A stretch of DNA of 64,000 nt, taken from contig OZ038453.1 in NCBI GenBank assembly GCA_964036195.1, positions 7,455,469 to 7,519,468 of the forward strand, given 5' to 3'. Position numbers and translations under genes: made by a program. Shown piece by piece: positions 1 to 54,880 of this stretch; the first letter of the stretch is position 1; each line of letters begins with the position of its first letter. Under the pieces are notes generated by a model, which was not told the DNA's origin, ran no database searches, and saw only the letters and a list, made by a program, of their open reading frames with translations. The stretch is from Sphaerolaimus hirsutus. Its lineage: Eukaryota > Nematoda > Chromadorea > Monhysterida > Sphaerolaimidae.

Positions 1-3000
1 AACACCAAATTCACACCAAAACAACCAGTCAAGCAGGTGCCAATCCCGCACCCTGTAAAGTGTAAAGTTAAGCGTAAAATGCAATGTAAAATGTCACACC
101 AATTTGTCAATTGTCATGCAAAGTGTAGAAAGTTCAGTAACAACATGTTTACCTTATTTTGAGTTCTGATTGACATTTTACATGACATTTTACACTCGAC
201 TTTACATTTTACGGTGTGCGTGATAGCGCCCAGCTGTCCCACTCGGGCACCATCGGCGTGCACTTCGAGCCCACTTCCTTGTCCGACTTCAACGACAACT
301 CGTTGCCGTGGGGAGAAAGGGTACCGGTGCACATTACCTTTGATGTGGCCGATGTGCGAAAATATGTGCGCTTTGAAGTGCGATACAATTGTCAAGATGA
401 TTATAATTGCCATTTGGTTGAGAAGGAGACTTTTGTGGTAGAATTGACTGAGGAGAAAAACTTTACTGGTGTGTTTTTGAATTTCGAAATTTGTCTAGGT
501 CTACTCTTTTTTCGCAATGCGATGTTCCCGACAACTGACAAATTTCAGAATGTTAAAAATTTGCAATATATTCAGGATTGACAGTGTGTATGTATTTAGA
601 GCCTGGCAATTTCTAAACACCACAATTTTGCAATAAAAGAACCCCCCCCCACTTTTTGCAGCCACAATCAACGTTACAATCGAGGCGACATTCCTAGGAG
701 AAACCTATCTAATCCCCGTCCATTTCAAACAATTGTCTCCAAAAACGGCACACCCCTTCGAACTACCCCAAAAATCGAGTCGAATGCAAGTTGTGACCCT
801 CAAAATGGCGTTCAGCGAGCAATTCAGGGGCCACTTCCAGACCCTGTAAAAGACCCTGTAAAGTGTAAAAGACCCTGTTGAGTGAAAAAAAAACCTGTTA
901 AGTGTCAAATGTCATGTAAAAGACCCTGTAAAGTGTCAATTGTGTATCCAAATCTTATTTTATCATATCCAAATCATATGTTTTTGTATCCAAATATTTC
1001 TTTTTGACATAACATTTGGATACAAAAACATTTGATTTGGGTACGATAAAATAAGATTTGGACACACATAACACTTTACAGGGTCTTTTACATGACACAT
1101 GACATTTTACAGGGTCTTTTACACCTTACATTGTCTTTTACAGGGTCTGGGAGTGGTACCAGCGCGTACTTTACCATTTTGATGGTGCTGTTCGTGGTGG
1201 TGAACACGTTCATGATGGGCACCCAGTTGCAGTGGGCAGCCATCGCGCAGTCGGCCAGGTGGCAGTCCCGCGCACTGGAAAGTGTGCAGTCGAGTGTCGA
1301 ATGTCTAACAATGGCAAACCCCCCCCCAGCAATTTTTTTAAATTTTTAAGTGTTTTTTTCAATTGTTTTTAAAAAATTTTCGAATTTTCCCCTGAAATAA
1401 TTTTTGAATTTTCGAATCGCTTCAAAAAAAACCTATATTTGTGTTTTTTGCCTTGTTTGAAATAGAAAATCGAAAAATCTGAAAAAAATTCAAAGATTCT
1501 AAAAATGTTTTTGAATTCGAATCTTTTTTGCCATCATTACGAATGTCATGTGAAATGCCACACAAATTTGTCAAATGTCTTGGCAAGCTGCCAAAAGTTC
1601 AGTGATATCATGTTTATATTGGTCTGCGTGACATTAGAAACTTGACTTTACACTTTACATGGTGCGGGACTGCTCCCAGGAAGCCCGTGGGGCCGGCTAT
1701 TGGGCTCGTGTGCCAGTTCATACTGATGCCTTTGGTGGGTTGTGGGGGGGGGGGGTTACGTACCCTATCCCCCCATGGACATCTTCCCCCCTGGGTTGAT
1801 ATAGCCCTTGAGGACTACATCAGCCCGAGGACTACTTTGACCCGACTTTTATAATGTGGGGGGAAGTAGTCCTCCATACAAAATAGTATTAAATAGTACA
1901 TTGACCCCCGCCCACTCTAATTACTCTATTGGGGCGTCTGTTTGGCCATGGGAATGTGTGCTATGTGATTTTTTTTTTATCTAATGTGATGCAAGAACAA
2001 CACTTGCATCAGTTTAAAATTATTTATTGATGCGTGGCGCTCCACAGTTATGCACGCGTCTGTTAGGCCCATTGGCATCGATTATTGATTGTGTGAGTGC
2101 ATGAAGAAAAATGCATGCAACTTCAAAACTCAATTTCTCGGCCATTTCTCAGCCGATTTTCACCACTGAACACTTAAAATGATCAGAATCACATGGAGAT
2201 TTCATTTTTAATGGTGTTGCATGTGTAGCAGTATGGTAATCATAACAGACAAAACGCCAAGTGACCACAGACAAAACATTAATGCAACACAGACAAAAAA
2301 TCAATGCAACACAGACAAAACATCAATGCAACACAGACAAAACACCAATGGATCACAGACAAAATGCTTTGGCATTTTGTCGTGTTGCATTGGTGTTTTG
2401 TCTGTGTTGCATTGATGTTTTGTCCGTGTTGCATTAATGTTTTGTCTGTGTTGCATTGATGTTTTGTCTGTCATGATTACCATAATGCAACACATGCAAC
2501 ACCATCAAAAATGAAATCTCAATGTGATTCTGATCAGTTTAAGTGTTCAGTGGTGAAAATCGGCTGAGAAATGGCCGAGAAATTGAGTTTTGAAGTTGCA
2601 TGCATTTTTCTTCATGCACTCACAAATTCGATAATCAATGCCAATGGGCCTAACCGACGCGTGCATAATTGTGGAGTGCCACGCGTCAATAAATAATTTT
2701 AAATGCATCTGTTGTCTCATGTTACATAGCAGTCAAGACAAATGGGTCAAAAGAAGGGTGGCCCACATTGAAAGTGCAAGAATTTTTTTTCTCGCTTCAC
2801 TGACTACACACTATACAATAAAAACTACCATATCCCATCCAAATAAAACCACTTTTTTAACTCTCATTACAATTACATTGCTCTCACAATTTAACACATT
2901 CTCTCACATTGCTATTTGACCCACACTGTAATGTGATGGGCACTATAGTTTTCAGCATGCAGAGGTCACCTAAATATTGACCTTCTGCTGTGACCTTCGC

Positions 3001-6000
3001 GGGCAACGGGTCAATATGTACGCAAGGCCGCGCGCAGCGGGTCAATGTAATGCATAATGGGTTGATATAGTCCTCATAACTCAAGGACTGTCAGGCGATA
3101 TAGTCCTCGAGGACTTTATCATCCCCCGGGGGAAGATGTCCATGGGGGGATAAATACCTGTAATCGTGGGGGGGGGGGTGAAAGTGCTTGGTTCGCTGCA
3201 GAGTTGTGAAAGTGTATTTACAGTTAGGTAGATGGAATACCCAGGTATTTATCCTCACCTAGTTTTCCAAGTTTCATGTCCAAGTTTTCTAAAAAAATTC
3301 CATCACATTTTGTGACGATTTCCCGGGTATTGCCCAGGGTTCCCGGGTTCACCAGAACGAGGTGTCTGACAACTGCAGTTGACAAAAATTCAAAATACCT
3401 ACTTTAAATGGTGAACTCAAATCCGTTCAAAGTTTATTTATGAGTTTACCAAAATCTGGCAGTAAACTAGTGTGCGCATTCTCAATACATAGATAAATAT
3501 TTCCCAAATACCCAACATTTCAGCTATCATTCGTCTGTATTTTTCTGGTGCCGGTTTCGCAAAATGAGAAGTGAGAAGTGAAATGGCAAAGGCGAAGTAA
3601 AAGCGCAAAGGCCAAGTGAAATGGCAAGTGAAATGGCAAAAGCGAAGAGGAATTACTTTTTATTTTTATTGTTTTAATTCGCTTTTGCCATTTCACTTGC
3701 CAATTCACTTGCCGTTTCACTTCGCCTCTGCGCTTTTACTTCGCCTTTGCCATTTCACTTCTCACTTCTCATTTTGCGGAACTGGCCCCTGATCCCCGAG
3801 GAATACAATGGCCTTCGGCTGGGCTTTTTTGCAATTGGCTGCTCGCCAGGCGGCATGGCGAGCAATTTTTGGACCATTTTATTGGATGGAAATTTGGATT
3901 TGTCCGTTACGATGACGTGTGTGTCCAATTTTGCAGCTCTTGGTTGGTGGTGCTTTTTTGTTGAGCTGCTGCGTTTACACCGTGGGGCACTCCCAGACCC
4001 TGTAAAGTGTCAAAGACCCTGTATAATTTCTTGTGTCATTTAAAAGACCCTGTAAAGTGTCAAATGCCAGGTAAAAGACCCTTTAAAGTGTCATGTGTAT
4101 CCAAATCTTATTTTATCATATCCAAACCTTATGTTAATGAAGCCAAATATTATGTCAAAAAGTAAGATTTGGATACAAAAACATAAAATTTGAATACAAT
4201 AAAATAATATTTGGATACACATGTTACTTTACAGCGTCGTTTACATGACATTTGACACTTTACAGTGTATTTTACAGGGTCTTAGGGTGTCAAAAAACAT
4301 TTGTACGGTAAAAGAACATGGAAAAAGTTTGACTTTGGAAAATGGAAATGGGAAAAAACGGAAATTTGAGTTTTCAACCGTCTGTTTCTCACGAATTTAA
4401 CGGATTTGTTGTGTCAGATGCCTAGATCTCATTCACATTATTTCCACCAAAAATCCTAAATTAACCCCCCCCCCCCCCCAGCCACGATGCCCTTCTGGTT
4501 GTACACTCTGGGCAGTTACTTTTTCCGCGGCCCAGTGGCCTTACCATTTCTGAACATTATCACATCGCTATTGGCTTTGATAATTCCCGCAGCTATTGGA
4601 TTTTTGCTGGGTTATAAAAAGCCCAAAGTTGTGCCCACTATAAAGCGGTATATCAAGATTATTACGCTGGTTGTCTTGTTTGCAGTGATCGCAGTTAGCG
4701 TTCGCAAAGATTTTGGGAGATTTGTGTTTTTTTTAGAAAATATGACAGAAAAATATCTTTACATTGGTATCTATTTATGAGATCTGAAAAAACTTGAAAA
4801 AAGAAAATAAAGTTGTTGTTTTCTTCAGAGAGATCGACTTAATTTTATATTACTTTTGGGAGATTTTCTTATAATCAAATTTCATTTAATTATATTTTAT
4901 CTTTTTATGAGAATAAAAAAAAATTGAAAAAAGGAAAAGAAAGTTTTTTCAGATAAATTTCATCTACCTAATTTCTATATTTGATAGATTTTCTTGAGAT
5001 CATATTTGAGTAATTATATTTTCTAAAAACAATCCATTTTTGGAACGCTAATCACAGTCTCTTCAATTGCTAACTGGTATATAGTCTTGCTGTTGAGATG
5101 GTACACTATTGTGCCAGGAATGCTGCTGACGTATATTGGATTTATCTTGGCTTTTTGTGCTGCTAAGGTTGATTGGGACAGGCATTTTTGTTTCTTTGAT
5201 TTAGGTGAATATCGTATTACCTCGAAATACCCCCATGGGGGTTTATGATTTCGCCAGCAAAATTTGAGGGGGGGGGGGGGTCAATTCGAGGGGGGTGGGT
5301 TTATTCGAGGTTTTTTTTTATTTCGCCAGAAAATTTCGTGGAATTCATAGTAAAAAATACGCTATTTCTTACACAAAAATGTGAATAAATGTGAGAATAT
5401 AGGTCATATTGGGGCTATAGATGTACATCTGTACACAAATGAGCGTATAAGAGTAGCTGCGATGCAAATAAGTAGTAATAAATGCATCATGTACATTGCA
5501 TACATGATGTACATCATTTCGGAGGGGGGGTATTTCGAGGGGGGGTTTATTATTTCCCCAGCCCATTTTGAGGGGGGTTAATTCGAGGGGGGGGGCTTAA
5601 TTCAAGGGGGGGATAATTCGAGGTAATACGGTAGCTGTATATTGAGGGAGCACTTTTGAACTGTAGAATCACATTTTACCTTCTAAACATATACTGTAAA
5701 TGCTCCAATAAGGCGACGGTCGGTTTATTGTTTTCAGCACATTTTTGGGGGTCGCATTATTGTGGCCACACAAGCTGGTTTTCAATGTTCCTTTTTGAAA
5801 ACTCTCCTAGGTGATGCGTCGCTGTACGGAATTCAAAAGTGTGCAATTTGCACTTTTATTTTTCAAAAAGTGACAGCATATGTGAATATTGGTTTCGGCA
5901 AGTCACATTTGCCGTTCAAAGTTCACATTTGCAGAACATTTTTGAAAACTGTAGGGCGACGCGTAGGCGACGCGTAGGCGACGCGTCGCCAACAAAATAC

Positions 6001-9000
6001 TCTGAAGACAATTTTGAAAACTTAAAATTGAATAATGTAGTTTTCAAAAATGTACATTCTAGTTTTCAAATTTGCAGAACATTTGTGAAAAGTGCGACGT
6101 ACAGCGACGTAGTTTATGGATTTTCGCCAACTTACTCCAAAATCCTTTAAAAAACACTGGATGGATGGGTTAATGTAAAATTAAGAGTGTACATGCAGTA
6201 TTTTATGCTGCATGTACTGATGGGGTTGTAGAAAACTTGGGATGCATATAAAATAAAATAATTTTTTTTAAAAAAAACGTCACTGTGGCAACGTTTCAGG
6301 TGACAACTGTATATGTCACCTGTTTCCATAAGTTATTACCAATCTTGAAAAGTACTTATAACATGACAGAATTCATAAATTTATCAACAACACCGAATCT
6401 GGGACTTGGTACTACTGTTAATTAAATCAATCTTTCTGAAATTTGTGTGTACCATGCAATTGTTAGTCATGATCTTGCATTAAAATATAAATATATATAT
6501 AATTTTTCATTTCATTAATTGATAAATATTTGTGAAAGTGATTTATATATGCAGTTAGGTTGGCACTCTGTACAATGGGCTAAATGAAATTTCAGATGCA
6601 AATCACAGGGATGAAATTCAAGATGCCATCACAGAGAAAATGAAAGACTGGTTTCGATGTACTCATGGCAGACTTAGATACTGCGCAATTGCCAGTCATT
6701 GGTGAATCAATCCAGTATGACCAACTGCTTGCACAATCTTTGGGTCAATACCAGCATCAACACTCCAAGGTGACCAAACAACTAAACAGTATCTGGCTAG
6801 CTGCCAAACCTGATTTTATGCATATAACATATGTCTTATTTTGTGCACTTTCACCTTGCATCACATTTACTAAGCTGAGTTTTCCTGAGCACTGCTTGGC
6901 TCAGCTGGACTGGAGTTTTTGGAGTTTTTGCTGCAGGCTGGAGTGTTGTAATGGCCTCCACTGGGTGCTTGGCAGTTAATTTATACCCTTTGCACTGACA
7001 CTTGAAAGTTGTGCACATACAGTAAATAATTTTGAAAAAATCTCTGGAAACATTTTTCCAAGCCTTTTTTTGCATCTTTACATTTCTTTTTCAAGACTTT
7101 CACTCAATTCCTCAATTCCATGGATAGATCCAGATAACTTTTGAGTTTTCAAAAAGGTTCATGTTTATGTTAAATTTTGTGACAGATCGTAATATTAAAT
7201 GAAAACATTTCTGAAAACAATACAATAAAATTGTTTTTATTTTTTTTGTGCTAGTGTATTGAATGTGACATTGTCTCAGTCAGTGTTCACTTGTTGTTCA
7301 TTTTTTTGGCTTTAATTTACATACAAAATCAGCTGTTTCAATTGCACTTGTGATTTTTAAAAAAATTATAAAGTGGATTGTATAAAAATATCATTACTTG
7401 TTTTGCAGAAATGTTATTGAATTCAGTTTTTTTTTTTTGATGTGAAAAAATAAGGGCTTTTTACTGTGATAATGCAATAATTACAGATACACAGATGTAA
7501 TTTAAAAAAATTATTTAATGTTTTAAGCATAACCACAATTTCTTCATCATCTTTGAACTTCTATTGTGAAACATGGTATCAAATGAAAGAGAAAAAAAAA
7601 CTGGATATATATCTGAGACGGATATTATATACAATGTAAAACTGAATTTTTAAAAATATTTATAGTTAGAAAACGAATTAATTTTTAAAAATATGTATAA
7701 CAGTGTTAAAAATATACAATACAGTCCCAAAAATCAAGCATAATTTTCTGCATCACATGCCGCTTACAGCTTGTCCTACAAATTCGTACTTATTCAACAA
7801 AAAAATATTTTGTCTGCAGCATTTTACCAGAGTTTTCAAATATGTGTTCTTCCGGAGGAAAAATAGAAAAAAAACAAAGATGGCGGCCATTTGGCTCATT
7901 ACACAGACTGTTTAAATGAATTTGAAAACAAAATAATGGGTTTTCACAGAGGGAACCTTGAAAACCAGCTTGTGTGGGGCCATTGGAGAGGTCGCTTTAT
8001 TGGAGAGGGTCGTGTTGTATTTTTCAAAAACTCAACAACTCAACTTTTCATTTAACGCGTATGAGTATGGCACCGTAAAGCAATAGGTAATCACATCAAA
8101 GCCACAAAATTCTCAAAATACTTAATATTCGGGTTCAACGATATCAATTAGTGGCGTCCGAAGATTGCGAAATTGTTTTTATTATTTATTTTTTTTCTTT
8201 GGGGGTCGGAATATTGGAGGGGGTCGCTTTATACTTACACAACGTGCCATAGGGAGTCGTACTATTGGAGAGGTCGCTTTATTGGAGGGTCCTAATAGAG
8301 CATTTACGGTACCGTATTTACCCGGGGGATTATTTTTTCGTCAGACTTTTTTGAGGGGGGGATTATTGGACTGGTGAATTATCCAAAGGGGGGATATTTT
8401 TTACTTCGGAGAGAGGAGGTTACTTACTCGTCTAACAGGAGGGGAATTATTCAAGAGGGGGGGGGATAATTCAAGTAAATACGGTACTTTAAATCTATAA
8501 ATCATCCCAATCATTGAATTGAGAAGGAAATTGGAAAAGCGGAAGGGAAGTTGTTATTTGTTTTACTTCGCATTTGCCAATTTTCTTGCCATTTCCCTTC
8601 GCATTTGCCAATTTCCTGCTCAATTCACTTCTAACTTCTCAATTCACGTCGCATTTGCCATTTTACTTCTCACTTCTCAATTTGCGGAACTGGCACCTAG
8701 TCATTTCGCAGCTTTTCCGCCGCGACGACCGCGACGCGCGTACAATCATGATGGAAACGGGCATTCAAAATGCGGGGCTGGCCATTTTACTGGTGCAATT
8801 GTCGCTAGACGCACCGTACAGGGATTTGGCCATTGTTATGCCGGTGTGTTTGGAGGGTTATGGTAGAGTTTAGATGGGATTTCGATCCTGAATTATGGCA
8901 ATTTTTGGGATTTTGGGATGCTGATTAGTGATGGAAAAGCGCCATGGCGCTGGTGCCATGGCGTTAACGCCACCCACAGGAAAAAGCGCCGTGGTTTAGG

Positions 9001-9668
9001 TTGGCCCTTAGTGTTGGTTTTTGAGTGGCGCCAGGAACAAAACGCCAGGCGCTAGCGCCACGGCTCTTCTGGCGCCTGGTCTCTCTTTGCTCTGGCGCCA
9101 TTGGTGCTTGACGCCTAGAAAGACGCCATGTGATTTTGGCGCTTTGGACAATTTGTGCCAAAGTCCTGGCGTATTTTCTATCACTGATTCTGATACTCAT
9201 TCTTGAAGCCCAGATCTGGTGATGGAAAGGTACCATGGCGCTGGCGCTTTCTGAGTGTGCCAAAGGGCGCCGCGCCATGGCGCCATTGGCGCTTCGCACC
9301 CTTTTCCTGTGGCGCCATTGGCGCTTGGCGCCCACATAGTGAATGTCGCTATGGTGCCAATGGCGTTTATGGCATTGGCGCTTTGCTATTTGCTGGCGCT
9401 TTTCCGTCACTACCCAAATCCCAATCCCGATCCTGAAAAAACTCAGGTGTGCGCGATGTTCTCCGGTTCTTTGCCGCTTTGGATCTGGCTCGGCGTTCGT
9501 TCGTGCCGCCATCGGTGCGGCAGCGGCGACGCCGTGAAAAGGGTAGCTCCCGTGCCCGAATCGGGTATGTTGCCCGACAAATCGGGCGCGGAGTTGGGCA
9601 ACAGGGCGGGTGAGAATGGGCAGGTGCAGTTGCGGTCTGGTGATATTTGCAGTGTGCAGGGTCGATGA
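1..9668 (+). CDS. SLC10-family transporter (P3/SLC10A3-like), 11 exons, 5' partial
   Basis: Multi-pass membrane protein of the sodium/bile-acid cotransporter family. The long extracellular N-terminus before the first membrane segment resembles the SLC10A3/A5 (P3) branch; substrate unknown. Exons: 1-36, 234-468, 662-827, 1163-1258, 1680-1734, 3524-3547, 3801-3942, 4482-4766, 5058-5204, 8701-8843, 9447-9668. All phases agree, and exons 2-11 total exactly 505 codons including TGA at 9666. Family motifs seen in order: KPVGPAIGLVCQFILMPL (exon 5), LSFVCIFL (24-nt exon 6), LGFFAIGCSPGG (exon 7), LLALIIPAAIGFLLGYKKP (exon 8), SIANWYIVLLLRW (exon 9), IMMETGIQNAGLAILL (exon 10) and a final hydrophobic segment (exon 11). 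The initiator lies left of the window. The exon 8/9 junction is the least certain; it is set by phase and makes a long loop. Introns 1, 3, 4 and 6 are introner-like elements. Confidence 0.85.
37..233 (+). mobile_element. Introner-like MITE forming SLC10 intron 1
   Basis: The 197-bp intron is one element. The left end GCCAATCCCGCACCCTGTAA (from 39) pairs with the right end TTTACGGTGTGCGTGATAGC (to 225). The flanking 8-mers aagcaggt and gcccagct share CAG at positions 4-6 and the final T, as a decayed target-site duplication. The donor CAG|GT is in the left copy and the acceptor CCCAG| in the right copy. The interior has TGTAAAATGTCA-type repeats on both arms and could fold as a long hairpin. 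Confidence 0.75.
469..661 (+). other. Ordinary SLC10 intron 2
   Basis: Intron with donor G|GTGTGT and acceptor TTTTTGCAG after a pyrimidine-rich tract. It lacks the GACCCTGTAAA-type termini seen in introns 1, 3 and 4, so it is probably an older intron. The upstream frame is open a little past the donor, but phase and protein continuity favour splicing here. Confidence 0.6.
828..1162 (+). mobile_element. Introner-like MITE forming SLC10 intron 3, GG donor
   Basis: Palindromic element with left end GCCACTTCCAGACCCTGTAA and right end TTACAGGGTCTGGGAGTGG. Inner arms carry GTGTATCCAAATCTTATTTT and its complement, so the whole intron can fold on itself. The flanking 8-mers attcaggg and taccagcg share CAG at positions 4-6. 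The acceptor is TACCAG|C, and exon 3 ends TTCAG. Phases match exactly (AG + C = Ser), but the first two intron bases are GG instead of GT, either a non-canonical donor or a mutation. Confidence 0.7.
1259..1679 (+). mobile_element. Introner-like MITE at both ends of SLC10 intron 4
   Basis: The intron starts GT|GGCAGTCCCGCGCACTG and ends GGTGCGGGACTGC|TCCCAG, so its termini are inverted repeats. The flanking 8-mers ggccaggt and tcccagga share CCAGG. Splicing joins ...GCCAG to GAAGCCC and gives the continuous family motif SARKPVGPAIG. The centre (about 1320-1540) is A/T-rich sequence without recognisable repeats and may be a later insertion or drift. Confidence 0.75.
1743..3180. mobile_element. 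Large terminal-inverted-repeat element in SLC10 intron 5
   Basis: Outer inverted repeats: CCCCCCATGGACATCTTCCC near 1769-1790 and its complement GGGAAGATGTCCATGGGGGG near 3131-3150, each followed inward by TGATATAGTCCTCGAGGAC-like sequence. A second, nearly perfect palindrome (about 1995-2705) is nested inside. Together they fill most of intron 5, which lies before the 24-nt exon at 3524. No coding capacity. Confidence 0.65.
1995..2705. repeat. Long palindrome with 21-bp internal tandem repeat
   Basis: Two arms of roughly 350 bp are inverted copies around a centre near 2372. For example GCATGCAACTTCAAAACTCA at about 2112 is mirrored by TGAGTTTTGAAGTTGCATGC near 2585. Near the centre both arms hold a degenerate repeat built on GACAAAACATCAATGCAACA. 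It is nested inside the larger element of this intron and has no plausible gene. Confidence 0.75.
3548..3800 (+). mobile_element. Introner-like MITE (second family) forming SLC10 intron 6
   Basis: The left end GCCGGTTTCGCAAAATGAG follows the donor CTG|GT. The right end CTCATTTTGCGGAACTGG is followed by cccctgat. The arms carry GAAGTGAAATGGC-type repeats and are self-complementary. The flanking 8-mers tttctggt and cccctgat match at positions 4, 5, 6 and 8, but the right copy has CTG where other copies have CAG. The nearest canonical acceptor, CCCCGAG| at 3800, is 9 bp further on. Excision exactly at the duplication would keep three extra codons (Ile-Pro-Glu). Confidence 0.7.
3990..4290. mobile_element. 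Introner-family MITE inside SLC10 intron 7
   Basis: Left end GCACTCCCAGACCCTGTAAA and right end TTTACAGGGTCTTAGG. The inner arms carry the GTATCCAAATCTTATTTTAT module and its complement. It starts about 50 bp inside the intron (donor at 3943), so here the element does not define the splice sites. A partial TAGGGTGTCAA-type MITE (about 4284-4380) follows directly. Confidence 0.65.
5212..5632. mobile_element. MITE with CGTATTACCTCGAAATACCC termini
   Basis: Starts CGTATTACCTCGAAATACCC and ends ATAATTCGAGGTAATACGGT, with long G runs broken by TTAATTCGAG and TTATTTCGCCAG. Related copies in this window lie at 40802-41251 and 42240-42668. It lies in SLC10 intron 9. No ORF of its own. Confidence 0.65.
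5698..8307. mobile_element. Nested transposons in SLC10 intron 9
   Basis: The outer element has ends GTAAATGCTCCAATAAGGCG (5698) and GGTCGCTTTATTGGAGGGTC ... GAGCATTTAC (8307). An inner 2.2-kb element, about 5762-7982, has terminal repeats GGCCACACAAGCTGGTTTTC and its complement. The inner element is repeated at 28517-31084. Short ORF remnants around 6590-6700 recur there, so the family probably once coded for a protein, but nothing intact remains. Confidence 0.65.
8311..8485. mobile_element. Short MITE of the ACCGTATTT family
   Basis: Inverted ends ACCGTATTTACCCGGGGGAT and AATTCAAGTAAATACGGT surround G-rich sequence with ATTATTTTTTCGTCAG. It directly follows the outer nested transposon of SLC10 intron 9. 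Confidence 0.65.
8517..8700 (+). mobile_element. Right part of a second-family introner at the SLC10 exon 10 acceptor
   Basis: Ends TTCTCAATTTGCGGAACTGGCACCTAG|, the same right terminus as the element at 3548-3800. The last bases serve as the acceptor of SLC10 exon 10. The left terminus is missing, so the present intron runs back to a donor at 5205 and is 3.5 kb long. The 5' portion (8517-8560) still reads GAGAAGGAAATTGG-like. Confidence 0.6.
8923..9414. mobile_element. GCGCC-rich palindromic MITE pair in SLC10 intron 10
   Basis: Bounded by TAGTGATGGAAAAGCGCCATGG and GGCGCTTTTCCGTCACTA, with a second internal end (CTGGTGATGGAAAGGTACCA) near 9207. The interior is dense in GGCGCCA and TGGCGCT words, so spurious ORFs are open on both strands. 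Other copies: 10807-10990, 51727-51960, 53318-53490, 57811-58032. Confidence 0.65.
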
Positions 9669-9961
9669 TTTCTGTGTTGTTTTTATTTTATGTTTATGAT
9701 TATGATTTTATTGTTTTTATTATCATGCTACCTATTATGGTAGCATTCTGCACACAGTTTTCGCTCCACCCAGTACACCAAAATATAAACGCTTATGTGA
9801 TTAAAGACCGATATTTGCTTTCACTGTCCGTGAATTTCATAAAAAGTTCACCATGTCACCTTATTCATCAAACTACTGTTTCACTGCATGATTCTGCCAC
9901 TACCAAAAAATTGACGCCCACCATTAAAAAACACATTAAAAACGTTGCCATCAATTCATCA

Positions 9962-12162
9962 CTACAGTAATTTTCCAAATTTATTCAATTCAGACACATC
10001 GTCAATGGGCGCCATCACAGCCAGCATCATTTTAGATCCATTGCGAGTGGAATTGAAATCACGGTCGCGATGTTCACTATTGAAATCGTGCTCGCATTTC
10101 TTTATGCGAATCGCCCATTTGGCTGGCGGGCCCGTGGGCGGTGGGGTGTATGTTTTCCCATCTGGTAAATATGGATTGTTTGAGTTCTGGGGGCACTCCC
10201 AGACACTGTAAAAGACCCTGTAAAGTGTCATGTGTCATGTAAAAGACCCTGTAAAGTGTCAAATGTCATGTGTCATGTAAAAGACCCTGTAAAGTGTCAA
10301 ATGTCATGTGAAAGACCCTGTAAAATGTCACGTGTCATGTAAAAGACCCTGTAAAATGTCAAATGTCATGTGTCATGTAAAAGACCCTGTAAAGTGTCAA
10401 ATGTCATGTGAAAGACCCTGTAAAATGTCACGTGTCATGTAAAAGACCCTGTAAAATGTCAAATTTCATATAAAATAATTTGTAAAGTGTCATGTCACAA
10501 TGTGTATCCAATTCTTATGTTTTTGTACAAATCGTATGTAAACGTAAGATTTGGATACAAAAAACATAAGATTTGGATATGGGAAAATAAGATTTGGATA
10601 CACATGACACTTAATACGGTTTTCTCATGAATTTTGACACTTTACATGACGTTTTACATGACACAATACATTTTACAGGGTCTTTTACATGCCACATGAC
10701 ATTTTACAGGGTCTTTTACATGCACATGACATTTTACAGGGTCTTTGACACTTTTCAGAGTCTTTCACAGGGTCTGGGAGTGGCACATCACATGGTGTAG
10801 TCATCACTAGTGATGGAAAAGCGCCATGGCACTAGCACTGAAGGAAAAATCACCATGGCGCTTCTGGCGCTTTGCACCATTTGCTCTGCGCTTTTTACGC
10901 TATTGGCGCTTTGCGCCTGGGTTCCAAAAACCGCCAAAGAGGCACTTCTGGCGCTTGGCGCCAAAGCCATGGCACTTTTTCCATCACTAGATCACATTAT
11001 TATTCAAATAGAGTGTCAAAACTTGGAGATACACCAAATTTTTAGCTGAATTTTTTTGCTGTTTCACTCGATTTTGGTGTATTGTCAGTTTTTGGCAAAG
11101 ATGAAAAAAAATCACCGTTACTTTGTTTCACCATTAGCTATTGCTGGTATGAATTCTGCAAAAGCAAATCTCAAAAAAATAAATCTACATAAAGTTCCAA
11201 ACGGATTAGCAAGAAAACTTGTACCTATCTCCATGACGGGTAAAGGAGGTTGATATAATGGCTTTGTAGAATGGAATGTGCAGGAAAATGAAGCTCCATT
11301 GAGTTTGTGCTTGCACACATTTCCACTTTGGGTCTGAAACATTGTGGGGTAAATTATAGGTTTTTTCATGTTTATTTTCATTTATTTCTTCCTATAACTT
11401 TCAATTTAATTTTCAATGTGGGTGAACAACAAAGAACACCCCAGTTTGCAGGCTGAAATTTTTTTTAGTTCCAATGTTTCAGGTCCAAGTTTATTGGATG
11501 CATAATATTTCCACCCTGAAATAACTGCCCCAAACGACATTTTTCACATGGGTTGATTGATTACAAAATAATTACCTATTTTTTATTTATCAATTCCGGA
11601 ACCGAAACATGTGATACTTGGATATGAAGCCACCTAATCGGAACTGAATATGTGAACCCATTTTGCACCCCTTTTCACTCACACTAATCATTTAAAATAC
11701 ACTACAATTGACAAGAAATAATATTAAAGAAAACACCATACTCATCAGACTACATACAACTATTTTATCTATTCCACTGGAGTCACACCCCGAATTAGAT
11801 CAATTTTGGTAAAAATTGATTATTTTGTCCATTAACAAGTGTTTTTTATGTTATCATATTAATCTTAAATTGTAGAGTTTTTGAAAGGGTTTATTCATCT
11901 TATTGTTTAAATACATGTTTCTTTTCTGAACTGCAACATTACAAAGTTCACTAACATTATATCCATGTGATTTGATGTCACAAGTTGACTCTCTGATTTT
12001 GGCTGTAAATTCATAGTTATGAAAAGGTATAGGTCTGGTACATACTCGTATTATTTCGGTAGCCACCAGATATTTCTTTTTGGAACAAAACCTGTTGTAC
12101 CATTGTGGTGGCTCTGGGCAATTTCCATTCAAATTTTCATCAATTGCAATTTGTGCCAATTT
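9962..12162 (-). CDS. Cysteine-rich protein, last four exons, 5' end not found
   Basis: Exons on the minus strand: 12162-11956, 11333-11225, 10806-10787, 10186-9962; phases 0-0, 0-1, 1-0, 0-stop, total 187 codons. Exon 1 has four cysteines (near NGNC, RFC, RVC and STC) and is homologous to the exon at 60571-60765. Exon 2 runs from TQSGNVCKH to PPLPVME. Exon 3 is a 20-nt microexon (VMTTPCD with its neighbours). Exon 4 has a Pro-rich TYTPPPTGPPAKW stretch, a Cys, a basic/acidic run and ends NKFGKLL. No family recognised. Cysteine spacing suggests an extracellular protein, but the signal peptide would be upstream. It ends 293 bp from the SLC10 stop, tail to tail. Confidence 0.6.
10187..10786 (-). 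mobile_element. Introner-like MITE forming the last intron of the minus-strand gene
   Basis: Read on the minus strand, it starts donor GAT|GT then GCCACTCCCAGACCCTGTGA and ends GTGTCTGGGAGTGC then CCCCAG|, so both splice sites lie at the element borders. The arms hold many GACCCTGTAAAGTGTCA repeats and the GTATCCAAATCTTAT module. The flanking 8-mers (tgtgatgt and ccccagaa) do not match well, so the duplication has decayed or one end was exchanged. Confidence 0.7.
10807..10990. mobile_element. GCGCC-type MITE whose end supplies a splice acceptor
   Basis: Termini CTAGTGATGGAAAAGCGCCA and TGGCACTTTTTCCATCACTA. On the minus strand its final bases CATCACTAG| are the acceptor of the 20-nt microexon 10806-10787; the phase agrees with the exons on either side. 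Confidence 0.6.
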
Positions 12163-12219
12163 CTGCATGTGAGCAGTGTCTTTCAGGTAACTCCCAATTA
12201 TCTTATACATAAATAATAA

Positions 12220-13350
12220 ACTTGTGGTGATTGCTTTTTCAAATGCTTTATGCTATTCAAATGTGCACATGATGCATAACAGGCTGATAGATATGATTAA
12301 CATGTTGGGATGGGATGCATTAAGAACTTATTTTATATGATATACAGCGATTTGTATGTCTTTTTTCAATCACCAATTTATATTGTAAACCATTTTTACT
12401 ATGAAAACTAGATTGAAAATAAAAAAATATTGGGCATCAACATTTTGCACTTGTTTGTATTCTTGTATTTCTGGTATGCTGCAAAATCAATTTTAAAAAT
12501 AAAAATATAGGTGAATATATATAAAAATATAAAAAAAATATCATTTTAGTCAAAACTACTTACAACCAGATACTGTAAATGCATTTAAGCTTATGAGTCA
12601 AATCATATTATTGTATTATATGAATACATACCTATTTACTTTCACATGTTGATTCACTATATATTTTGGAAAGAATCTAGAATACATCACATTTTGGATG
12701 TAAATTGATGTAAAATAATAATGTCGATAACTTTTTTAAAGATTTTTTTAGCAAAAAAAAATACTTAAAAAGTGTATATTTAAAAAAATCCTCAAATAAA
12801 ACAACATTTACTGATTAAAAATTTAACCTTGATACTGTCAGTTGGGGGTAAATCCTTGCAGCCACCAGGCCACAATGGCCCTTGATAACCCACTGAATAA
12901 TTTATTATTAAAAATATGACTGCCAAAATAAGGAGTAGCTTCTCCATAATTTAAAGAAAATATTCCAGTGTTTCTCTGCTATTTATGTGACCTCATCTGG
13001 TTTAAAGTTTTCCACACCTCTCATGTACATGTGAATTGTGACTTGTGAGCTGGGAAACTTGGATGTGTGCTAGGAAAGTTAGAAGTGGCAAGTGAAGAAG
13101 TACAGAACATGTTTGCACAAAAGAATTGCATCGAGTTAATGTGTTTTTGTATTACATAGAAACATGAGATTTTACTAATGTTAGAGAAGTAATAAAATTC
13201 AAATTGTTCAGTAAAAACTTAATTAGAACAAAACAAATTAGAAGTTATTACTATTGACAACTAAAATGCTAGAAAAAGAATCAACTATATTTTGGCATTT
13301 TACTGGGATTGTTAAGACGCTGATTGTATGGTGTTTTATAAATTTTTGTA
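12220..13350. other. A/T-rich stretch, no gene seen
   Basis: Upstream (minus strand) of the cysteine-rich gene. A/T-rich with poly-A and poly-T runs and stops in all frames. I see no convincing exon, RNA gene or repeat end. The missing 5' exons of the minus-strand gene may lie further upstream. Confidence 0.5.
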
Positions 13351-13353
13351 TGT

Positions 13354-14181
13354 GTTGTGACTAGGGTTCAAACGATATATCGTATCGAATATCGAATATC
13401 GGATATCGACCATTTTTTAATATCGAATATCGAATATCGATATCGAAAATTTTGAAAAAATATCGAATATCGAGTATCGATATCGAAAATTTTGAAAAAA
13501 TATCGAATATCGATATCGAATATCGACCATTTTTTCGATATATCGAACCTGTATTGTGTCCCCGCATTTACTTTTCATTTTCATTTTGAGATGTTTATGG
13601 TTGATCTGATGTGCTTATAGTATTGTATTTGATGAGTAAAAGTACAGTATTTATAATGTCATTGTTGTTGGAGTGCTAAATTTGAAGCCAGAAAATGCTG
13701 ATATACTTTTTTTGCAACATGCCCTTAAGTAATTAGGTTATAAGGATGAACTGTAATATCTACCAATTGTTATTTGTCTGATACACTTTGATTCATCATG
13801 TTTTTCTTCTATTTTCTACCATTGAGTGATGTAAAGCTTGTTAAAATTACTTGTACCATTCACATTTCAGTAAAGAGATGATTAAACATGTGTGCAATCA
13901 CATAAAAATACAATATGCCACTTGAAATATGCCTTGCTATACCAAAAGCACATCGCAATATCAAATATCGAAAATATCGAAATATCGAATATCGGATATC
14001 GACCATTTTTCAATATCGAATATCGAATATCGATATCGAGGTTCCATATCGTATCGATATCGAATATCGAGTTTCAGAAAAAAATATCGAATATCGAATA
14101 TCGATATCGTTAATTTTGTAAAAATATCGAATATCGGATATCGATATCGAAAAGTCATATCGTTTGAACCCTAGTTGTGAC
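13354..14181. mobile_element. hAT-type MITE with ATCGAATATCG arrays
   Basis: Element 13362-14173 has 17-bp-plus terminal inverted repeats TAGGGTTCAAACGATAT and its complement, and is flanked by perfect 8-bp duplications GTTGTGAC at 13354 and 14174. TAGGG termini and 8-bp duplications are typical of hAT elements. Both ends carry arrays of ATATCGAATATCG; the middle is unique A/T-rich sequence. ORFs rich in Arg-Tyr-Ile-Ser here are translations of the array. Confidence 0.85.
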
Positions 14182-14854
14182 TAGGGTGTCAAAAAAATTT
14201 ATTTACGGAAAACGGAAACGGAAACGGAAAAAAATTTTCAGCGGCCGGAAAATGGAACGGAAAACGGAAAAAAATTTGCACTTGGCGGAAAACGGAAACG
14301 GAAACGGAAAAAAAATTTCAGCGGCCGGAAAACGGAAAAAGAGGCCGGAAAAACAGAAACGGAAAAATCAAATTTGGATCGGAAATGGAAAAACTTGCTG
14401 AAATTTTGCCAGAAAACGGAAAAAATGTGCTGAAATTTCGCTGGAAGTGGAAAAAATTTGCAGTAATTTTGCTGGAAACAGCAATTTTTTTACATCATTG
14501 ACAATCTGCATGAATTTTTACCAGTTTGGCTGATCAGAAAACAGAAAGTTGAGCCAGAAAAAGGTAAAATGAGGCGGAAAAATGGGAAATTGAGGCAATG
14601 GGAAATGGGAAAATGGAAAAAGGTGGAAAAACTGGAAATTGAGGCGGAAAACGGAAAAAAGGCGGAAAAACTGAAAATTTAGCCGGAAAACGGAAAATGA
14701 GCCGGAAAAACAGAAACGGAAAAAAAAAGTTGCCGGAAAACGGAACGGAAAACGGAAAAAAATTTCAGCGGCCGGAAAACGGAACGGAAAACGGAAAAAA
14801 TTTGCCTGCGGAAAACGGAAACGGAAAACGGAAATTTGACACCCTAGTTGTGAC
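14182..14854. mobile_element. hAT-type MITE with GGAAACGG repeats, adjacent to the previous one
   Basis: Element 14182-14846 begins TAGGGTGTCAAAAAAATTTA and ends GGAAATTTGACACCCTA. It is flanked on both sides by GTTGTGAC (14174 and 14847), the same 8-mer as the neighbour. The interior is degenerate GGAAAACGGAAACGGAAA. Related copies: 17992-18528 (complete), about 4284-4380, 24300-24364 and 49815-50300 (partial). Confidence 0.85.
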
Positions 14855-15833
14855 CCTCCTTCTTGGTAACAGCTTGGAGCCAACATCCAGTTATTAGGGC
14901 AATGGGCATGTAACCTCTGGAATAAAATTTGTTTGCCAAATATTTCCAGTGGATGTTTAAAAGTTGAGTATTTCAATAAAGTTGTGTATTCCAATTAAGT
15001 TGTGTATTGCCTTATTTTTGAGGGTTAAGCTTTAACAAGTTTTTCTTGTAAAACAAAATTTTGTATGGCTCGAGTTTTTGGAGAAAACTGTAACACATTT
15101 AGAAGGCATACACACACACACTGTTCCCAGGTAAATTATTAACATCATCAACTGGGCTGTAGGCAGTTAAAGGTTACCTACTTTTCAATTGCAATAGTTT
15201 TCCGCCCATGTGTGAACTGTATTTTGATAAATATCGGTAAAAATATGTCTTAGGTACAATTTGTTTAGTCCAGGGTTTCAGGGAATACTTGACTACTGTA
15301 GAAAGGGTGTCCAAAACTTTTAAAATTATCCTAAAAAAATAATCTACACTGCTTAATGAGACTGATAATCTAATTGTACATTTATCTCTGTAATCTCGAT
15401 TCAAGCTTTTCTAACACATGTAATAATATCTGGCATAATGTAATATGGCTTCAATATGGTCTTCATGCATATAGTATGCCCGATGTAAAAGTTTTTTGAA
15501 TGGTGAGTGGTGTTTGAAGGTTTTAAAAGCTTATTCAAGTAGGTATTTTAGTTGCCAAAAGCTCACACTTCACTTCACAGTACTAGAAATTGTGTTGAAG
15601 TAAATGAAGAGAAAGTTATCCTTTAAACTGATGTGCTTTGTTAGGTGGGAACTGATTATGCATAACTTTTTTTTCTGCCATGTGTTTGTTCATTTGTTCA
15701 TTCACCCTGGGAGTTTGATTAAATACACTCACACATATTTTTACAATGTTTTTGGGGAAAATATTTCTAATCAATGGAATCAAACTTTTGTAAAGCCGAT
15801 CAAATGTCACACATAGACTGATCCATAATATAT
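14855..15833. other. Unique sequence without a recognisable gene
   Basis: A/T-rich, with only short ORFs in all frames and a short CA run near 15110. Nothing with exon-like composition or paired splice signals was identified. Confidence 0.4.
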
Positions 15834-15935
15834 ACCGTATTTCCTCGAAATACCCCCCGGGGGGTATGGGGGTATTTCTAGGGGGGTATTTCGGTGGGGG
15901 TGTTTTTCTAGGGGGATATTTCGAGGAAATACGGT
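15834..15935. mobile_element. Short ACCGTATTT-family MITE (about 100 bp)
   Basis: ACCGTATTTCCTCGAAATAC at the left and GATATTTCGAGGAAATACGG at the right, with G-rich sequence between. It is the shortest complete copy in the window. Confidence 0.7.
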
Positions 15936-16341
15936 AATCTGTGAAAGTGTAGAATAGTGTGAACGTAGGATAAAATAACTCTAGTTTACCTAGGTAGTTT
16001 ACTCTAGTTTAATTTTATATACACCAACCGAGATTGAATGGCAACTTTTTTCATAGGAGAAGTGGAAAAGTGTCGTCGACTGTGAATTTTGCGCATACAA
16101 ATAGTTACCAACACAATAAAACACTTCCTACTGTGAAATTGATATCGCACCAAACGATGAAAGCTCAAACGGTGAATGTTTAGAAATGCAGACAACTTTT
16201 TTCTCTCAATAGCCTCAGTTTACATAAACAAATCATGAGTGAAAACGTTCAAAATCAACCGATCATTGCGACATTTCAGAACTTTGCATTTGCATTCAGG
16301 AAATCGACCGCAGTGCAAAACCGACGCAAAATTATTTCGTC

Positions 16342-16389
16342 ATGTCTATCAAACTTTTTCTCTTTTTGGCAGTCGTGCCTTTGTGCATG
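16342..16389 (+). CDS. Signal-peptide exon of a secreted protein
   Basis: ATG at 16342 followed by a hydrophobic run (IKLFLFLAVVPLC), then a consensus donor ATG|GTGAGT at 16390, phase 0. This looks like the first coding exon of the plus-strand gene continuing at 16713. The phase does not match that exon directly (which needs phase 2), so a small exon is probably missing between them, or the two belong to different genes. A MITE (16481-16664) occupies most of the interval. Confidence 0.55.
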
Positions 16390-16480
16390 GTGAGTGAAAT
16401 GTTTGGCAAGTTGTCAAAATTTAGCACAGTGCTACTAGCACTGCTAAATGATTTTTTTTATCTGTGATAAATTAACTACT

Positions 16481-16664
16481 GTATTTCCTCGGAATACCCC
16501 CTCAAAGTGGCCACTATGAATAAATAATCGGCCACCCCCTCGAAATACCAAACCTGAAATTAGTGTAAATAGAATGTAAGTACCAAACCAAATACTGCAC
16601 CGCTCAAAATTTCCACTATGAAAAAATAAACCCCCCTGGGGTCATTTCGAAGACATACGGTACG
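16481..16664. mobile_element. ACCGTATTT-family MITE
   Basis: Ends CTGTATTTCCTCGGAATACC and TCATTTCGAAGACATACGGT, with cytosine-rich sequence between. It lies in the intron after the signal-peptide exon. Confidence 0.6.
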
Positions 16665-16712
16665 GTGGTAATTGCACTCATGCGTTTGTGACTGACCGTG
16701 ACAATTCTGTAG

Positions 16713-17119
16713 AAGAAACCCTCCCCCCCAAAAAACCCCCCAAAAGACACATGGACAAAATATGGCACCCCCTGTGCAGAGTTTGCCCACCAGCCCGGTG
16801 CACGTGTTTCCCGACCAAATGCCCGAACCCCCGGTGCCCACTCCCAGACCCTGCAAAATGCCCCGAAACATGTCAAATATCAAGCGAATTGTCAAAAGTC
16901 ATGTAAAATGCCCTGTAAGATAGCAATCGAAATCGCCACGTTCCAGGACATTTTACATCACTTTAGACACTTGACATTTGACACTTGACATTTTCCATAG
17001 CATTATACAGTGTGCGGGAGTGCGCCCAGGAGCACGTCAACCGCATGATGGCGAGTTTGTTCGGCACATGCCCGGCTGCCTTGACATGTATCAGAGGACT
17101 GCAGAAGGAAAACAGAGAG
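16713..17119 (+). CDS. Pro-rich protein, two exons around an introner
   Basis: Exon 16713-16833 starts after CTGTAG and encodes a Pro/Gln-rich segment ending DQMPEPP. Exon 17030-17119 encodes EHVNRMMASLFGTC, then PAALTCIRGLQKENRE, and ends with donor GAG|GTGCGT. Both meet in phase 0. The NMAPPV motif resembles NMAPPQ in the Pro-rich part of the gene at 38634-43770. The frame choice is supported by the next exon, also phase 0. Function unknown; probably secreted if the signal-peptide exon at 16342 belongs to it. Confidence 0.6.
16834..17029 (+). mobile_element. Introner-like MITE forming a 196-bp intron
   Basis: Begins donor CCG|GT then GCCCACTCCCAGACCCTGCA and ends ACAGTGTGCGGGAGTGC then GCCCAG|. 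The flanking 8-mers cccccggt and gcccagga match at five positions. The arms are complementary TGTCAAATGTCATGTAAAATG-like sequence. The intron is the element plus one duplication copy and nothing else. Confidence 0.75.
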
Positions 17120-52628: not shown

Positions 52629-53140
52629 CCTGGTGCCAGTCCCAGACCCTGTAACAGACCCTGTAAAGTGTAAAAGACCCTGTAAATGTCAGGTGCATGG
52701 TTGCCAAAATCTCAGAAAAAATAAAAATAAAATAAAAATAAAATGGAAAATTGAAGAATAAAATAAAATAAAATGAAACAAGAAGAAAATTAATATAAAA
52801 TACAATTTTTATACAATTTGTACACAAATAATTTTTATACAACCAACCGTAATCAGGTGTCATGTAAAAACCATGTTAAGTGTTAAATATCATGTAAAAA
52901 ACGTTGTGAAGTGTCATGTGTATGCAAATCTTATTTTATCATATCCAAATCTCATTTTATCATATCCAAACCTTCTGTTCTTGTATCCAAATCTTATGTA
53001 AAAGAGTAAGATTTGGATACAAAAACATAAGTTTTGGATACTATAAAACAGGATTTAGATAAACATGACACTTTAATTTAAAGGGTATTTTACATGACAT
53101 TTGACACTAAACAGAGTCTTTTATCTGACACATGACATTA
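52629..53140. mobile_element. Decayed introner-family element with an A-rich MITE inside
   Basis: Left end CTG|GTGCCAGTCCCAGACCCTGT. The inner AAAATAAAATAAAAATAA block (52690-52855) is a partial copy of the hAT MITE at 36293. Inverted GTATCCAAATCTTATGTAAA arms are near 52920-53040. The right terminus has decayed. Confidence 0.55.
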
Positions 53141-54442: not shown

Positions 54443-54880
54443 GCTGGGGGCACTCCCAGACCCTATAAAAGAACCTGTAAAGTGTCAAAGACCCTGTAAA
54501 ATGTCATGTGTCATGTAAAAGACCCTGTAAAAGACCCTGAAAAGTGTCAAAGACCCTGTAAAATGTCATGTATCATGTAAAATACCCTGTAAAAGACCCT
54601 GAAAAGTGTCAAAGACCCTGTAAAATGTCATGTATTATGTAAAATACCCTGTAAAGTGTCATGTGTATCCAAATCTTATTTTATCATATCCCAATCTTAT
54701 GTTTTTGTATCCAAATCTTATGTGTAAAGTAAGATTTGGATACAAAAACATAAGATTTGGATATGATAAAATCAGATTTGGATACACATGACACTTTACA
54801 TGGTATTTTACATGACACATGATATTTTACAGGGTCGTTGACACTTTTCAGGGTCTTTTACTGGGTCTAGGAGTGGCAGC
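54443..54880 (-). mobile_element. Introner-like MITE upstream of the signal-peptide exon
   Basis: Minus strand: tatcagct then GCCACTCCTAGACCCAGTAA, ending TACAGGGTCTGGGAGTGC-type sequence then ccccag|ca. The flanking 8-mers share CAGC at positions 4-7, but the left copy has CT rather than GT after CAG. Inner GTATCCAAATCTTAT arms are inverted. Confidence 0.6.

Follow-up and report, generated by a model that had tools for sequence, protein, structure and literature searches.

The window analysed in this study is a stretch of 64,000 nucleotides (nt) of the nematode Sphaerolaimus hirsutus, and it contains members of a family of short transposable elements that we have followed through the genome assembly of this species (348 Mb in 762 contigs). 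These elements are very probably introners, i. e. miniature inverted-repeat transposable elements (MITEs) that duplicate a CWG triplet upon insertion and give rise to introns that are exactly excised. This view is built on observations of different kinds: the copy number of the family, the duplication of 3 bp at its target, elements that extend over whole introns, homology that crosses the junctions, a bias in orientation, and an insertion that is derived as compared to uninterrupted paralogues. The original prediction, made from the window, had introner-like MITEs create whole introns from 8-bp target duplications. Its observation is confirmed in part, and the introner-like reading is partly supported, but the mechanism has to be corrected.

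The family is well defined and consists of thousands of short palindromic elements that land at CAG or CTG triplets. A search of the genome for the 20-mer terminus, as the original prediction had proposed, yielded 1439 exact copies (723 + 716) and none for the reversed pattern used as a control. With up to one mismatch, the 16-mer of the GT end has 7311 matches in the genome as compared to 5 in the control. The terminus has no match in viral contigs; in the prokaryote genomes searched, there is a single exact match of the 20-mer, in a Nonomuraea contig (L141:7811-7830), which is probably due to chance. The commonest form of the element is about 190 bp long and palindromic across its full length, with asymmetric ends: GTGCCACTCCC at one and GGGAGTGCCCC at the other. 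Among 32 copies of 165 to 210 bp, the median identity is 90% to their own consensus and 83% between pairs. The sample used for the insertion sites goes back to 100 listed places on a single contig: the surrounding sequence was obtained for 88, of which one held the same element as its neighbour, both ends were located in 59 of the remaining 87 loci, and the removal of one duplicate left 58 distinct sites, with one read per element.

At these 58 sites, the target duplication is 3 bp long (CWG), not 8 bp (NNNCAGGT). The triplets left and right of the element are identical at 34 sites; when the flanks were re-paired 2000 times, the mean was 19.9 and the highest value 32. Both flanks are CWG at 41 sites, and the middle base agrees at 34 of them (left/right: 21 CAG/CAG, 13 CTG/CTG, 4 CTG/CAG and 3 CAG/CTG; Fisher's exact test, p 5.6e-5). 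In the 3-bp register, left and right are identical at fractions of 0.86, 0.64 and 0.81 of the sites per position, and no other register between 2 and 10 bp matches along its whole length; thus, the duplication comprises 3 bp. The best single positions outside this register reach 0.52 (4-bp register) and 0.47 (7-bp register), as expected from a shared palindromic target that reads, loosely, (C)ACCWGGT(G). An element of the hAT or P type with an 8-bp duplication would account for the CAG that is common to the 8-mers quoted in the original prediction; since the 8-bp register reaches only 0.14 to 0.38 per position over the 58 sites, we regard this origin as next to impossible and have dropped it. 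The quoted 8-mers are indeed present at the borders in the window. They mix host and element bases, with GT on the left and the last three bases of the element on the right, and only the CAG is duplicated. Similarly, GT was correctly noted at positions 7 and 8 of three of the four donor-side 8-mers (intron 3 has GG), but it is the end of the element itself rather than a part of the duplication. The proposed tabulation of flanks over the 58 copies thus bears out a duplication, but one of 3 bp only. An excess of CTG/CAG over CAG/CTG sites, which would be a sign of selection for AG, was 9:3 in a tally of 72 sites and 4:3 with single reads; it was dropped because in the 72-site tally the same element may have been counted twice, once per strand.

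In the window, four introns (37-233, 828-1162, 1259-1679 and a presumed one at 16834-17029) are made up, from border to border, of a palindromic element and a single flanking triplet each. This extent agrees with the original prediction, except that the duplicated copy is a triplet and that the fourth case is weak. The first three are introns 1, 3 and 4 of an SLC10-like gene, and the exons joined across them form one open frame of 196 codons. The join at intron 4 aligns without a gap to solved bile acid cotransporters (best E 5e-24). The alignment begins downstream of introns 1 and 3, for which the open frame suggests that they are spliced out. For the presumed intron of a second gene, two of the three frames stay open over 70 codons when the exons are joined, which argues only weakly for splicing. 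Seven of the eight triplets at these introns are CAG, the exception being the CCG left of 16834. The right triplet is CAG in all four cases, in agreement with the original prediction, but this is not a rule in the genome, where CAG precedes the GT end 754 times and CTG 631 times (p 0.001, with copies that are in part not independent of each other). The two ordinary introns that we have inspected in the SLC10-like gene (intron 2 and 3944-4481) are both GT-AG introns. One family member (3984-4292) sits in the middle of the latter, and insertion into old introns thus occurs as well. With SLC10 intron 3 as the DNA query (window positions 824-1160), 112 matches were obtained, and 40 candidates were scored.

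Coding sequences interrupted by the element are also found elsewhere in the genome. For a Pfam analysis, 20 translations were picked by eye, for the most part out of the 82 open frames present at 83 sites, and 10 more, three of them mistyped, were added later. Five of these 30 queries had matches above the cut-off: MOFRL, COMM, bestrophin, carnitine acyltransferase and lipase. The remaining candidates, including SBF, PLC-Y, C2 and Kelch, were below the cut-off. The COMM-domain match extends across a junction, and at two further junctions, the flanks hold the MOFRL domain and the PLC-Y and C2 matches that stayed below the threshold. Searches against solved structures gave alignments that are gap-free at the join for PRPF8, bestrophin, carnitine octanoyltransferase (CROT), gastric/lysosomal lipase and SLC10 intron 4; the lipase alignment has a one-residue gap a few residues upstream of the join. 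As in known introners, the similarity reaches both borders in SLC10 introns 1, 3 and 4 and at the PRPF8, COMM, lipase and CROT loci, and both the gap-free junctions and the bestrophin paralogues point to insertion into formerly continuous coding sequence. 

Two of these genes deserve particular attention. PRPF8, an essential spliceosome gene, is present at three loci on one contig (C1:22176507-22239956), about 19 and 44 kb apart, and all three are split at the same place. The junction reads KTEDP-DLPAFYYDP without a gap, the CAG-GT terminus is present at all three loci (22176835, 22195638 and 22239766), and at two of them the insertion was followed over its entire length. An uninterrupted copy was not found in the search of the 348-Mb genome. 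Since the gene is essential and no other copy was found, this is a strong, if indirect, argument for accurate removal of the element from PRPF8. Three loci with the same introner are unusual for a gene that is normally single-copy. The PRPF8 protein encoded here has a two-residue insertion in common with one solved PRP8 (8ro0), which we take to be that of C. elegans. The 3' end of the 18S sequence in this genome probably is of the nematode type, and the tunicate (Fritillaria) affinity considered at first was given up in its favour. For bestrophin, nine other loci among the 18 matches align straight through the insertion point without stop codons, a count that omits one match with five stops and one that starts at the junction. 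These nine uninterrupted paralogues indicate that the insertion in bestrophin is derived. The bestrophin copy has CTG on both sides. The lipase copy has CTG on the left and CAG on the right, so that GT and AG are both present; its acceptor looks as if it had been made by one mutation, but the whole sample is without such an excess (4 to 3).

The orientation of the elements is biased in the coding-looking copies. A codon score, trained on 648 codons of homology-supported exons that include some of the tested loci, was used to assign coding-looking copies (score 10 or higher, with the two strands differing by 5 or more). Among these, 13 have the GT end first and one is reversed (p 0.002; the duplicate L113 was omitted), and the ratio is 13:1, 12:1 and 11:1 if the strand difference is set to 7, 8 and 10, respectively. 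The lone reversed copy, L046, has doubtful ends. Nine of the 13 GT-first copies end with CAG, and four (L097, L068, L115 and L047) end with CTG. Taken together, the copy number, the paralogues without the insertion, PRPF8 and the orientation bias support the earlier claim that different genes carry the same element and that introns were gained repeatedly.

How could such an insertion become an intron? We propose that a non-autonomous foldback DNA transposon, i. e. a MITE, inserts into the palindromic target around CWG and duplicates 3 bp. If CAG is on the coding strand and the GT end comes first, the product would have the structure CAG-GTGCC...CCCC-CAG: the element would provide the donor GT and the duplicated triplet the acceptor AG. 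Splicing at exactly these borders, as suggested by the reading frames and the homology, would remove the element and one triplet, restore the ancestral exon and leave the mRNA unchanged. The transcribed element may also assist in its own removal. When 15 of the introns were folded and compared to 30 single-base shuffles each, the predicted hairpins had minimum free energy z values from -4.9 to -26.3. A hairpin from end to end would bring the splice sites together, and internal decoy sites would be base-paired in it. Indeed, the internal decoys CCCT-GTAAAA and TTTTACAG are complementary to each other. The predicted pairing probability of the decoy acceptor TTTTACAG is 1.00 in the 12 introns from the numbered (L) loci and 0.75 in the intron of the second gene, and this decoy was not located in SLC10 introns 1 and 4; the decoy donor GTAAA is paired at 0.98 to 1.00 in 12 of the 13 introns in which it was located and at 0.48 in the lipase copy. 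In windows of six bases, the right CAG is paired at 0.03 to 0.77 and the left GT at 0.62 to 0.97. The terminal splice sites, being partly paired, would thus stay more accessible than the decoys. It is tempting to speculate that masking by the hairpin is the reason why the best-looking acceptor would be ignored, and we infer from these predicted structures that the hairpin may have a role in splicing.

Several points weigh against the introner reading as a whole. SLC10 intron 3 starts with GG, and bestrophin and other coding-looking copies end with CTG. Six high-scoring copies are ambiguous with respect to the strand (L040, L045, L049, L083, L089 and L094), and some copies were called coding by means of a codon score whose training partly involved the same loci. 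The donor of the element is devoid of the bases that are usual at positions +4 to +6, and the best-looking 3' site, TTTTACAG, precedes the terminal CAG by 19 nt, so that its use would shift the frame. The terminal GT region itself takes part in the predicted hairpin (pairing 0.62 to 0.97), which would bury a branch point, too. A search for empty sites with one repeat-nested copy found none, and no introner end was present at a transposon's own border among 21 loci with the transposase domain DDE_Tnp_4, with the Myb open frames left out of this search.

Some of these difficulties concern copies that lack GT or AG at a border, and three explanations have been considered for them. It is quite possible, if somewhat less probable than its opposite, that the copies with a CTG acceptor or a GG donor use internal sites, GTAAAA 18 nt inside the element and GGGAG-TGCCCCCTG 9 nt before its border, so that three, six or nine codons would be added to the mRNA. 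Both offsets are multiples of three, the stretches are free of stop codons in all frames, and the AG at the 9-nt position has been kept in L097, L068, L115 and L047; but non-coding copies share this consensus end, and the retention of AG is therefore not specific. Moreover, the added residues would come to lie within a conserved segment of bestrophin, and L045 and L083, which have CTG on the left and an ambiguous strand, are without the AG. We give about the same, rather guarded, credit to the idea that the CTG-ended and reverse copies in coding sequence are disruptive insertions in genes that are dispensable, duplicated or heterozygous. The many bestrophin paralogues of this species may make the loss of one tolerable, but this explanation is inapplicable to PRPF8, for which no uninterrupted copy was found. 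The long hairpin itself might guide excision, either by a modified spliceosome or by a spliceosome-independent route like the one proposed for the nonconventional introns of euglenids, and CTG targets and reverse orientation would then be tolerated. This is unlikely in our opinion, even though copies with GG...AG (SLC10 intron 3) and GT...TG borders (bestrophin) sit in conserved genes, four of the 13 GT-first coding-looking copies end with CTG, the predicted hairpin is extremely stable, and repeats of 3 to 5 nt, hairpins and non-canonical sites are found together in Amoebophrya introners, as far as described in the consulted parts of the source (PMC7789003). The 13:1 bias in orientation points to a need for the GT end, both of the ordinary introns inspected in the SLC10-like gene have GT-AG borders, and the canonical alternatives just described (donor +18 nt, acceptor +9 nt) are in frame and stop-free.

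Finally, a MITE could have entered ordinary introns that were already old. Such an event did occur in the SLC10-like gene, where an intron that has splice sites of its own surrounds the copy at 3984-4292, but we consider it highly improbable as a general explanation: the introns in question are filled by the element right up to donor and acceptor, and in nine bestrophin paralogues there is no intron where the interrupted bestrophin gene carries its copy. Formation of exactly excised introns by a CWG-duplicating MITE thus remains the reading that we prefer. A far-reaching extension of it, in which a NuwaI-like foldback element removes itself at the RNA level wherever it inserts, with masked decoys, clamped exon borders, stop-free fallback sites, and hairpin-mediated removal of the copies that lack a terminal GT or AG, is in our view an unlikely speculation.

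Introners have been described as similar introns in different genes, with similarity to near both borders, inverted termini and short duplications (Gozashti et al. 2022, PMC9860276). According to the parts of this article considered here, one splice site is carried by the element and the other is co-opted from the duplication, and the length of the mRNA is mostly unchanged. The S. hirsutus family is alike in its border-reaching similarity, inverted termini, short duplication and single co-opted site, and it corresponds to the class whose members bring a 5' site of their own and co-opt the one at the 3' side (PMC9860276, legend of Fig. 2C). It differs from those introners in being a full-length foldback, in its CWG duplication and in its nematode host. 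Among animals and land plants, introners are reported there in two groups only, both of them animals; in a word search, the main text yielded copepods but no nematode, tunicate, sponge or Harbinger (PMC9860276). We found no description of an introner family in nematodes in the titles, beginnings of abstracts and passages of the literature on introners, intron gain and MITEs, and a prior description is possible. For 104 nematodes, 4070 intron losses have been reported, nearly twice the number of gains (2291; PMC9169325, in the part considered).

The chemistry of insertion is reminiscent of NuwaI, a member of the PHIS superfamily that the passages considered report from animals only, with a CWG duplication and terminal inverted repeats of 12 to 61 bp that usually start with GGG (PMC4482050). 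The hosts given in these passages are fish, beetle, crustacean, mollusc and anthozoan, with no nematode among them. Like NuwaI, the S. hirsutus element duplicates 3 bp of the form CWG. One of its ends starts with GGGG but the other with GTG, the palindrome of the common form spans the entire element, and among the loci read there was no transposase that had such ends. The family may be mobilised by a transposase of the NuwaI/PHIS type. The comparison with other unusual introns is restricted to the parts of the sources consulted. Amoebophrya introners share direct repeats of 3 to 5 nt, inverted repeats and predicted hairpins that join the exon borders, but their splice sites are non-canonical and very varied and they have no family-specific inverted repeat, whereas we see one defined family in which the coding-looking copies are mostly GT-AG (PMC7789003). 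The nonconventional introns of euglenids likewise show base pairing of the intron termini and a suspected transposon origin; they lack GT or AG at one end or at both, whereas most of the coding-looking copies here have both (PMC11170887), since nine of the 13 GT-first copies also end with CAG, the exceptions being SLC10 intron 3 and the CTG-ended copies. Fritillaria is another animal with unusual intron biology; in contrast to its non-canonical introns, the two ordinary SLC10 introns inspected here are GT-AG (PMC13326754).

A Pfam search of the genome for DDE_Tnp_4 yielded 163 matches, and 21 loci were read. They include a Harbinger-type family (L119-L138) with more than 100 listed matches of one length class, in which, to judge by match length, an intron of about 190 bp seems to interrupt the frame. 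In 19 of these 20 loci, the end GGCCCC is preceded by AAT (11), ATT (7) or ATA (1). This is a different family, perhaps Pangu-like with an ANT duplication, and it was dropped as the partner of the introner since its ends differ. A second transposase group is represented by L139 (5 kb), which contains a related MITE; the ends of this transposon were not found. The MITE at L139:4180-4372, which runs from CTG and GGGGCAATC to GATTGCCAC and CAG (CTG-GGGGCAATC...GATTGCCAC-CAG), lies in or beside the Harbinger-like transposase locus, and an introner may thus interrupt a transposase. Eight termini that lack a second end were viewed by eye, with no search of open reading frames, and no transposase was recognised; in at least two of them (L042 and L046), a second end is present in diverged form.

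The origin of new introns is a long-standing question, and introners are on record in only two groups of animals in the part of the survey consulted (PMC9860276). The genome of S. hirsutus offers thousands of family ends, a clear insertion chemistry and uninterrupted paralogues. Moreover, its natural variants (GG donors, CTG acceptors and mixed CTG/CAG sites) allow the step from insertion to intron to be tested copy by copy, including PRPF8. If the unlikely extension considered above is correct, the invasion of PRPF8 would mean that the spliceosome has to splice its own parasite in order to be made.

Table. Features of the window related to the introner family and the SLC10-like gene (positions in the 64,000-nt stretch).
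Feature	Position	Strand	Remarks
SLC10-like exon, 3' part, ending ...AAGCAG	1..36	+	open frame joined to following exons
Left CAG triplet, SLC10 intron 1	34..36	+	
Introner element, putative SLC10 intron 1, GTGCCAATCCCGCACC... end	37..230	+	strong predicted hairpin, z -7.4
Right CAG triplet, putative acceptor AG, SLC10 intron 1	231..233	+	
SLC10-like exon	234..468	+	joined open frame
SLC10 intron 2, ordinary, not an introner, GTGTGTTT...TTTGCAG	469..661	+	
SLC10-like exon	662..827	+	joined open frame
Introner element, putative SLC10 intron 3, reverse orientation, starts with GG, not GT	828..1159	+	
Right CAG triplet, SLC10 intron 3	1160..1162	+	
SLC10 exon, first transmembrane region	1163..1258	+	open frame, homology
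Introner element, SLC10 intron 4, diverged subfamily GTGGCAGTCCCGC	1259..1676	+	z -4.9
Right CAG triplet, acceptor AG, SLC10 intron 4	1677..1679	+	
SLC10 exon	1680..1734	+	join to preceding exon aligns gap-free to bile acid cotransporter
Family member within ordinary intron (donor 3944, acceptor before 4482)	3984..4292	+	right end approximate
Longer family member, CTG left	10190..10786	+	not seen at an intron border
Left triplet CCG, perhaps mutated CAG, intron of second gene	16831..16833	+	
Introner element, presumed intron of second gene	16834..17026	+	open frames only
Right CAG triplet, acceptor AG of presumed intron, second gene	17027..17029	+	
Further GT-type family terminus, CTG-GTGCCAGTCCCAGACCCTG	52633..52651	+	
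Further family member, CTG left	54447..54879	+	

Other repeats are present in the window as well. An intron of the SLC10-like gene contains a second, unrelated foldback (2013-2703) with arms of 322 bp that are 93% complementary and with internal tandem units of 22 bp. At 15831-15936, 17194-17647 and 5208-5633, there are copies of a repeat that also looks palindromic, with long runs of G and termini resembling CCGTATTTCCTCGAAATACCCCC. Further repeats at 13375-14175, 14175-14850 and 18000-18530 comprise arrays of ATATCGAATATCG and an element that is bounded by CTAGGGTGTCAA and TTGACACCCTAG. A palindromic repeat starting with GCGAAGTGAAATGGC is present at 3544-3792 and 8562-8698, and a similar stretch lies directly upstream of an exon in L093. 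Outside the window, a ribosomal DNA array of mostly 7.3-kb units (approximate length) is located at the end of a contig (C1:4952-191401).

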